This document shows, piece after piece, positions 57,877 through 59,042 of a stretch of 64,000 nt of DNA (the first letter of the stretch is position 1; each line of letters begins with the position of its first letter). A program made the translations under genes and the position numbers. The stretch is from Peronospora farinosa (taxonomy: Eukaryota; Oomycota; Peronosporomycetes; Peronosporales; Peronosporaceae), in the NCBI GenBank assembly GCA_947646735.1, contig CANTFK010000766.1, positions 62,001 through 126,000 of the forward strand, read 5' to 3'. The notes under the pieces are model-generated. The model was not told the DNA's origin, did not search any database, and saw nothing but the letters and a program-made list of their open reading frames with translations.

Positions 57877-58440
57877 CTACTTTCGGGTATGGAGCCTTCT
57901 TTCTGGATGCCTTAGCACCAGCAGTAAGTTTGGCATAGCAGCGAGCCATTATATGGCCTCGCTTGCCGCACTTGTAGCAGATCACATCTGCATTGCCTAA
58001 CTCTATAGGAGTGGCATCAGACTTCTCGAACGACGGCCTGTAATAGTCTGTCGCCGAGGCGCTGTTGTAGAATTGATTCTTAACTAAGGCAATGTCAATT
58101 GCCTCTTCAATCGTCGCTGGCACCTTTCTAAAAAGGGCCCGACGCGATGGGCCGTGCCTAAGTCCATTCATGAACGTGGCCACCTTTATACGTTCCGGTA
58201 TCGGACTCACATTAATGGACGCCGACAGAGAACGCATCTCCTGCACAAATTTTTTGCAGAGAGCGTTTCACCTGTCGTGCTCCAAAAAAGCGCGCCTGAA
58301 GCAACACTTCGTTGATAGGCGGCTAATACATGAAGCAAATCTTTGCTTTAAAGATCGCTCATGACGGAAACGCATCAGCATTTGCCATCAGCGCAGAGTA
58401 TGCCCACTCTGACGCTTTGCCACGCAAGTTGGACATGGCA

Positions 58441-58457
58441 TACGACACCATTCTGGT
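58441..58457. repeat. 17-bp direct repeat, left (target-site duplication)
   Basis: TACGACACCATTCTGGT, identical to 58827-58843. It is the gag sequence duplicated on insertion of the U6-SINE unit. Confidence 0.9.
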
Positions 58458-58768
58458 TGAATTTGGTGTTTATAATTTGGTATTAACTTCGCTACGAGAG
58501 GTCGGTAGGATTCGTTCTCGAAGGTTATGCATTTTCGGGGGTGAATGTCACTTGCCGAACACATGTACTGTGAGAGGTGATTAACTTCGCATGGAGAGGT
58601 CGGTAGTGCTCTCTGATACCCGGGGCCCCAGGGGTATCGGAAAGTCTTGCGCTTGCGGGGATCGAACCAGTGACCGCTGGGTCATCAGGTCGGTGCTTAA
58701 CCACCGCACCATGGGGGGGGCCCAAAAAGTGCGATACTTCTCGATTTATGCGTCCTTGCGCAGGGGCC

Positions 58769-58799
<31 letters not shown>

Positions 58800-58826
58800 T
58801 ACGGATGACCACCGAAGTGGTTCCTA
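58458..58826 (-). mobile_element. Chimeric U6 snRNA-tRNA SINE retroelement
   Basis: The 369-bp insert is bounded by perfect 17-bp target-site duplications. Read on the minus strand, it consists of a whole U6 snRNA copy (58824-58724), a G1C-type run, a tRNA-related region with an A-box-like segment and a perfect B box GGTTCGATCCC (58668-58658), an unrelated body with two 27-bp imperfect repeats (58606-58580 and 58508-58482), and an AT-rich tail with the ACCAAATT motif twice. The 5-prime end of U6 lies within two bases of the duplication. This is what a LINE-mobilised chimeric transcript or a U6-headed SINE would look like. tRNA-derived SINEs are known in Phytophthora. Confidence 0.85.
58724..58824 (-). 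ncRNA. U6: U6 spliceosomal snRNA copy (probable retrocopy)
   Basis: The minus strand shows a 5-prime stem-loop ACCACTTCGGTGGT, then AAAAATTGGAACGATACAGA, the invariant ACAGAGA box, the AGC triad in GATTAGCATGG, CCCCTGCGCAAGGA with the internal stem-loop, and a 3-prime end closing in T5. All core U6 elements are intact. No TATA box or upstream element precedes the 5-prime end, where the target duplication starts, so expression is doubtful. This may be transcribed only if a flanking promoter helps. Confidence 0.9.
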
Positions 58827-58843
58827 TACGACACCATTCTGGT
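58827..58843. repeat. 17-bp direct repeat, right (target-site duplication)
   Basis: Identical to 58441-58457. It continues into gag codons for the segment IEDDTR. Confidence 0.9.
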
Positions 58844-59042
58844 GTCGTCTTCGATGTGCTGATCCACTCCACATTGCTAAACTGCTAATAGCCAGTGAAC
58901 AATCGTGTAAGGTGTAGTTCCATCGAACTTAAGAGGGTACATCCGAATGATCCTTGGCTGATTAGACCGTGCAGAGAGCGACTCAACAGTTATGTGAGCG
59001 CATCATTACGTGCCTGATCAAGCCTAAGCTCGTCCTGAGTCT

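Follow-up and report, generated by a model that had tools for sequence, protein, structure and literature searches.

SINE families with snRNA-derived heads, present in multiple copies, were reportedly described by Kojima in 2015, and SINEs are said to have been recorded in oomycetes by Whisson in 2005 (cited in PMC3522703). Single insertions that combine U6 snRNA with a retrotransposon form a separate set of examples, including U6 joined to Mon-1 in the platypus, six U6/AnolisSINE2 cases in Anolis, and human U6/Alu chimeras cited as reported earlier; in the same source, the LINEs in U6 chimeras are usually 5'-truncated and structures of this kind are attributed to template switching (PMC4476161). 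A related structure in Magnaporthe grisea, the WEIRD-MgSINE chimera with its 12-bp duplication, is also explained by template switching, and the 3' part of published bipartite chimeras is usually 5'-truncated, according to PMC2104539. The open-licence papers searched yielded no account of an oomycete chimera of U6 and a SINE, in keeping with a preliminary description of the DNA discussed here, which knew of no described U6-headed SINE in oomycetes, but U6/SINE chimeras as such have been published in vertebrates.

The window, by which we mean the whole 64,000-nucleotide stretch of Peronospora farinosa DNA analyzed (G000:C204:62001-126000, in an assembly of 46.85 Mb and 274 contigs), carries a 368-bp minus-strand insert at 58458-58825 composed of a U6 snRNA copy and a SINE (Table 1). 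Elicitin domains, which are a mark of oomycetes, match 22 times in this genome and in none of 14 control genomes, in agreement with an oomycete source; the controls seen by name are bacteria and archaea and are thus of little use as a contrast to other eukaryotes. Read along the minus strand, the order is repeat, U6 copy, SINE, and repeat, with U6 and SINE in the same orientation and a single 18-bp duplication enclosing both. The preliminary description had reported U6 joined to a SINE within a perfect target-site duplication, with the U6 5' end and the SINE tail at opposite insertion edges, and both observations hold, although its 17-bp repeats and 369-bp insert measure 18 bp and 368 bp, respectively.

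Table 1. Features of the U6-SINE insert and its surroundings (positions in the window)
Feature	Position	Strand	Basis or remark
Target-site duplication, U6 (5') end of element	58826..58843	.	18 bp, identical to 58440-58457
Target-site duplication, SINE tail end	58440..58457	.	18 bp
U6 snRNA copy, 102 nt	58724..58825	-	Rfam RF00026, 86.2 bits; alignment to genomic gene
T5 run, U6/SINE junction	58724..58728	-	Sole run of ≥4 T in element
SINE, putatively tRNA-type, 266 nt, 5'-complete (GGGCCCC start)	58458..58723	-	Family alignment; other copies
A-box-like sequence, SINE head	58701..58711	-	Sequence and alignment; one change relative to L010, L015
B box, SINE head (GGTTCGATCCC)	58658..58668	-	Sequence and alignment
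SINE 3' tail, type B (...CACCAAATTCA)	58458..58480	-	Common to C132, C274, C262; C42 less closely
Ty3/gypsy gag flanks interrupted by insert	58308..58993	-	Stretch used for empty-site test, insert included

The host sequence is a gag gene, as had been claimed for a gypsy gag, and a Retrotrans_gag domain (PF03732, E 2e-13) is encoded by an uninterrupted copy elsewhere (L049). When 150 bp per side plus one copy of the repeat was compared as a probe with the gag and SINE loci, and views of the insert's own locus and two duplicate views of contig C274 were left out, 28 loci matched; excluding L072, whose row starts inside the repeat, the alignment runs across the site without the insert at 27 other gag loci. 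The alignments are gap-free at 23 of these loci and gapped at four, and the exact 18-bp sequence occurs once in 18 of the 27. Twenty-five come from the gag search, in which the best 40 of 468 candidates were scored and gave 30 loci, and the other two (L011 and L028) are SINE loci situated in a gag of this type. The 25 include seven that are not independent of one another because they share one contig (C192). There, over C192:884-18342, the gag piece recurs seven times at intervals of ~2.88 kb, apparently as a tandem repetition of part of the element. Because 27 loci align without the insert, the 18-bp duplication is not a product of chance, and the same sites rule out an assembly artefact behind the flanking repeats, an explanation that the preliminary description had offered for checking. 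These results are most simply read as the joint arrival of U6 and SINE in a gag previously lacking both.

In the U6 portion, minus-strand positions 58822-58723 match Rfam RF00026 with 86.2 bits (cut-off 44; E 1.4e-20). No other Rfam match in the window passes its threshold, and homology to the U6 genes extends 5' as far as 58825. Compared with the genomic gene at L016 there are zero substitutions and one 5-nt internal deletion, and the copy ends in five T, where the gene has four T followed by G. Both U6 ends are present, so that the U6 earlier called complete is so at its termini, T5 included, but lacks 5 nt internally.

Further U6 sequences were sought in the assembly in three ways. The U6 part of the insert finds six places. 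The Rfam U6 model finds five, with the best 48 of 3199 candidates being scored. The initial 24 nt of U6, with up to 3 mismatches allowed, find six places that are all exact. Combined, these are six U6-like places: four U6 genes on contig C248 (102.0-102.5 bits), the chimera, and one 3'-truncated fragment on C270. Because the U6-like places are accounted for in this way, there is no sign of a U6-headed family in this assembly, and none of the SINE, U6, Rfam-model, and 24-nt searches of the 46.85-Mb assembly finds another U6-SINE junction. The copy-number search proposed in the preliminary description, run here in the insert's own genome, thus returns a single junction copy, the outcome expected of a single event.

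The four U6 genes (L016-L019; C248:604705-633353) lie within 29 kb in two opposite orientations. A TATA-like stretch that may serve as a promoter element lies 24-28 bp upstream of the L016 gene start; compared with this region, the sequence upstream of the insert has no TATA-like element. At the two of the four U6 loci that were scanned for tRNA genes (L016 and L018), a tRNA-Trp gene lies downstream in convergent orientation 90-120 bp away, and a tRNA-Ser gene lies upstream in the orientation of U6. The proposal that U6 and the tRNA-like part are a normal adjacent pair of genes, which had been put forward as a counter-explanation, is ruled out by this arrangement at L016 and L018.

The SINE belongs to a dispersed family with at least 16 clear and two weak loci (C210 and C13:135453) besides the chimera, where loci on C42 and C237 that are each split in two are counted once; the count is a lower bound because the searches score best candidates only. 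None of these other loci overlaps a U6 place. Two types of tail are present, ending in either ATTAAACC or CACCAAATTCA, of which the chimera carries the latter. Exact edge repeats of 15-19 bp flank six of the 15 SINE rows examined (L010, L012, L013, L021, L024, and L027), with L020 not counted because its repeat is 61 bp off in a repetitive flank. Several copies are 5'-truncated, and both these truncations and the edge repeats are what LINE-driven insertion would be expected to leave.

The head of the SINE contains the B box noted earlier, at 58658..58668, together with an A box bearing one change that is absent from the aligned full-length copies L010 and L015; both assignments presume the general consensus of such boxes. 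Three SINE heads resemble the genome's tRNA-Trp with z of 5.0-5.6 (500 shuffles), and the same three give z of 0.4-2.5 against tRNA-Ser. ARAGORN predicts no tRNA in the window, L010, or L021, and Rfam, at E up to 1, finds none in eight chimera or SINE loci (L009, L010, L015, L020, L021, L022, L024, and L025). The preliminary label of a tRNA-related SINE is only moderately supported, with the B box and the tRNA-Trp similarity in its favor and the missing Rfam and ARAGORN calls in the copies tried against it.

Two SINE copies are themselves interrupted. At L014:1052-1787 (C42) the SINE is split by 736 bp containing a tRNA-His (gtg) identified by ARAGORN, and the AT-rich look of this segment suggests organelle DNA. 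At C237:238874-258587 (L079 and L087) one SINE is split by ~19.5 kb that starts with TG, ends with CA, and has a 5-bp TCTCC repeat, which fits an LTR-type insertion, perhaps nested. C237:258522 had been considered as a LINE 3' end, and this is ruled out since the position fits one SINE split by that LTR-type insertion.

The junction is informative as to how the two parts were joined. The T5 of U6 directly abuts the GGGCCCC start of the SINE, which coincides with the start of L010 and is near the starts of the full-length copies L015 and L020, so that both RNAs reach their facing ends at the junction. The reading that we favor, with a probability of roughly 0.7, is a chimeric retrocopy that arose once, through LINE-type machinery whose reverse transcriptase switched from SINE RNA to U6 RNA; it is favored because of the exact duplication, the 27 insert-free loci, the near-identity of the U6 part to a gene, and the position of the junction at the SINE 5' end. 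A LINE endonuclease would nick the target, and reverse transcriptase would begin on the tail of the SINE RNA, copy to its 5' end, switch onto the 3' end of a neighboring U6 RNA, and copy to the U6 5' end, after which the second strand would be closed. Parts joined end to end are consistent with an enzyme that comes to the end of its SINE template and goes straight on along U6.

Candidate machinery is present in the genome. LINE-type endonuclease matches (PF14529) occur at four places, and L099 encodes Exo_endo_phos (E 4.1e-9) and RVT_1 (E 4.7e-27) domains in two overlapping frames. At L021 (C13:349111-349351), a SINE copy interrupts a stretch that matches the terminal part of the L099 LINE-like element, and the two LINE-like halves overlap by 15 query bases, the length of the L021 edge duplication. 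LINE machinery is supported because this SINE splits LINE-like sequence and because endonuclease and reverse transcriptase domains occur in the genome. A search for a partner LINE with either SINE tail (tail patterns with up to 3 mismatches) found none, the matches being SINE copies and one place on C102 that has 3 mismatches and lies in unrelated-looking sequence. This null result counts against template switching, as do the 5'-completeness of the SINE, the restriction to a single genome, and the fact that RNA ligation leaves the same DNA.

Ligation is the alternative that survives best, although we regard it as rather unlikely. In this account an RtcB-type ligase first sealed the U6 3' end, with its 2',3'-cyclic phosphate, to the SINE RNA 5' end, and a single round of reverse transcription then copied the resulting chimera. 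For U6/LINE-1 chimeras, PMC13174262 names two mechanisms, of which ligation ahead of retrotransposition is one. The placement of the junction exactly at the U6 3' end, with five T versus four in the nearest gene, may point to mature oligo-U U6 as a substrate, but the extra T is a possible trace of oligo-U maturation under jump and ligation alike. RtcB needs a 5'-OH, whereas SINE RNA that keeps the 5' end made by Pol III should bear a triphosphate, so that the intact SINE 5' end speaks more for a jump than for ligation. The two routes have the same DNA outcome. The earlier claim of a single template-switch product is supported by one duplication around both parts, the empty sites, and one copy found in the assembly.

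A fusion at the DNA level, in which a SINE inserted behind a U6 gene and a read-through U6-SINE transcript was retrotransposed, is very improbable. The shared orientation of U6 and SINE and the presence of tRNA genes near U6 genes are in its favor, but no SINE follows any of the four U6 genes (80 or more downstream bases viewed for each), the tRNA-Trp genes near the two scanned U6 genes are convergent and 90-120 bp away, and the T5 should have ended such a transcript. Scarcely credible, despite the SINEs with U1/U2 snRNA-derived heads cited in PMC13174262, is a U6-headed SINE family propagating as a unit and using U6 for transcription or stability, the bolder suggestion of the preliminary description, since only one junction copy was found in the 46.85-Mb assembly, no TATA-like element lies upstream of the insert, the T5 would read as a Pol III stop between U6 and SINE, and the internal SINE promoter would start transcription after the U6 part.

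For the one-off retrocopy, the U6-headed element is expected to be inert because it lacks the U6 upstream promoter element and T5 would stop Pol III before the SINE, and for the same two reasons the U6 part should be lost in further rounds driven by the SINE's own promoter. Broader generalizations, that related oomycetes hold a multi-copy U6-headed SINE family with a single member in this genome or that end-to-end jumps from one Pol III RNA to another are routine for oomycete LINE enzymes, are quite improbable; if such jumping were routine, new SINE heads would arise by these jumps and could be caught in the act.

The fragment on C270 (C270:583152-583212; L026:853-913) is a companion U6 copy of a different kind. 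It comprises U6 from nt 1 to about nt 36 between two 12-bp repeats, ATGATACATAAT, with two extra bases (AC) between the left repeat copy and U6, and the repeat contains GATACA, the same sequence as U6 at that point, a pattern as if copying began inside U6. It resembles the 3'-truncated ('tailless') Group III snRNA pseudogenes in having only the U6 5' part, flanking repeats, and a short U6 match at the 3' junction; in PMC4476161, these are explained by priming inside single-stranded RNA via short pairing, and the U6-SINE chimera itself is of another type. Together, the chimera and the C270 copy suggest two behaviors of this lineage's LINE machinery, jumping onto U6 and initiating copying within it, both of which PMC4476161 describes for mammals.

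Among known systems, the chimera is similar to the Group IV snRNA pseudogenes of vertebrates in the position of U6 5' of a non-LTR element, the shared orientation, and the flanking duplication, but its host is an oomycete, its SINE is 5'-complete, and the two RNAs are joined at their facing ends (compared with the available text of PMC4476161). An snRNA copy joined to a non-LTR retrotransposon and a flanking duplication indicating single-step insertion are found here as in that group, and template switching by a LINE enzyme, also part of its definition, would be read from the structure. SINEs with U1/U2 heads, as cited in PMC13174262, likewise carry an snRNA at the SINE 5' end, but the snRNA here is U6 and there is a single copy.

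WEIRD-MgSINE is alike in fusing a non-coding RNA to a SINE, in its flanking duplication, and in having a filamentous plant pathogen as host, but its head is WEIRD RNA rather than U6, its Mg-SINE part is 5'-truncated, and it has many sister chimeras versus one copy here (PMC2104539). Of the features listed for bipartite retrogenes in that source, the chimera has a full-length cellular RNA as its 5' part (both ends present, with a 5-nt deletion), direct joining, the same transcriptional orientation, and short flanking direct repeats, but its 3' part is not 5'-truncated, as the SINE reaches the L010 start; it works like these retrogenes yet fits their feature list incompletely. Less usual are the lineage in which it occurs, a join that involves the ends of both RNAs, and the truncated U6 copy that accompanies it, and it is the presence of both RNA ends with an exact duplication and many empty sites that makes the joining step unusually readable. 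The locus is a real single insertion, best explained as a chimera produced by a template jump or else by ligation, with its parts unusually joined end to end, and it probably extends U6 chimeric insertions to a new lineage, the oomycetes.
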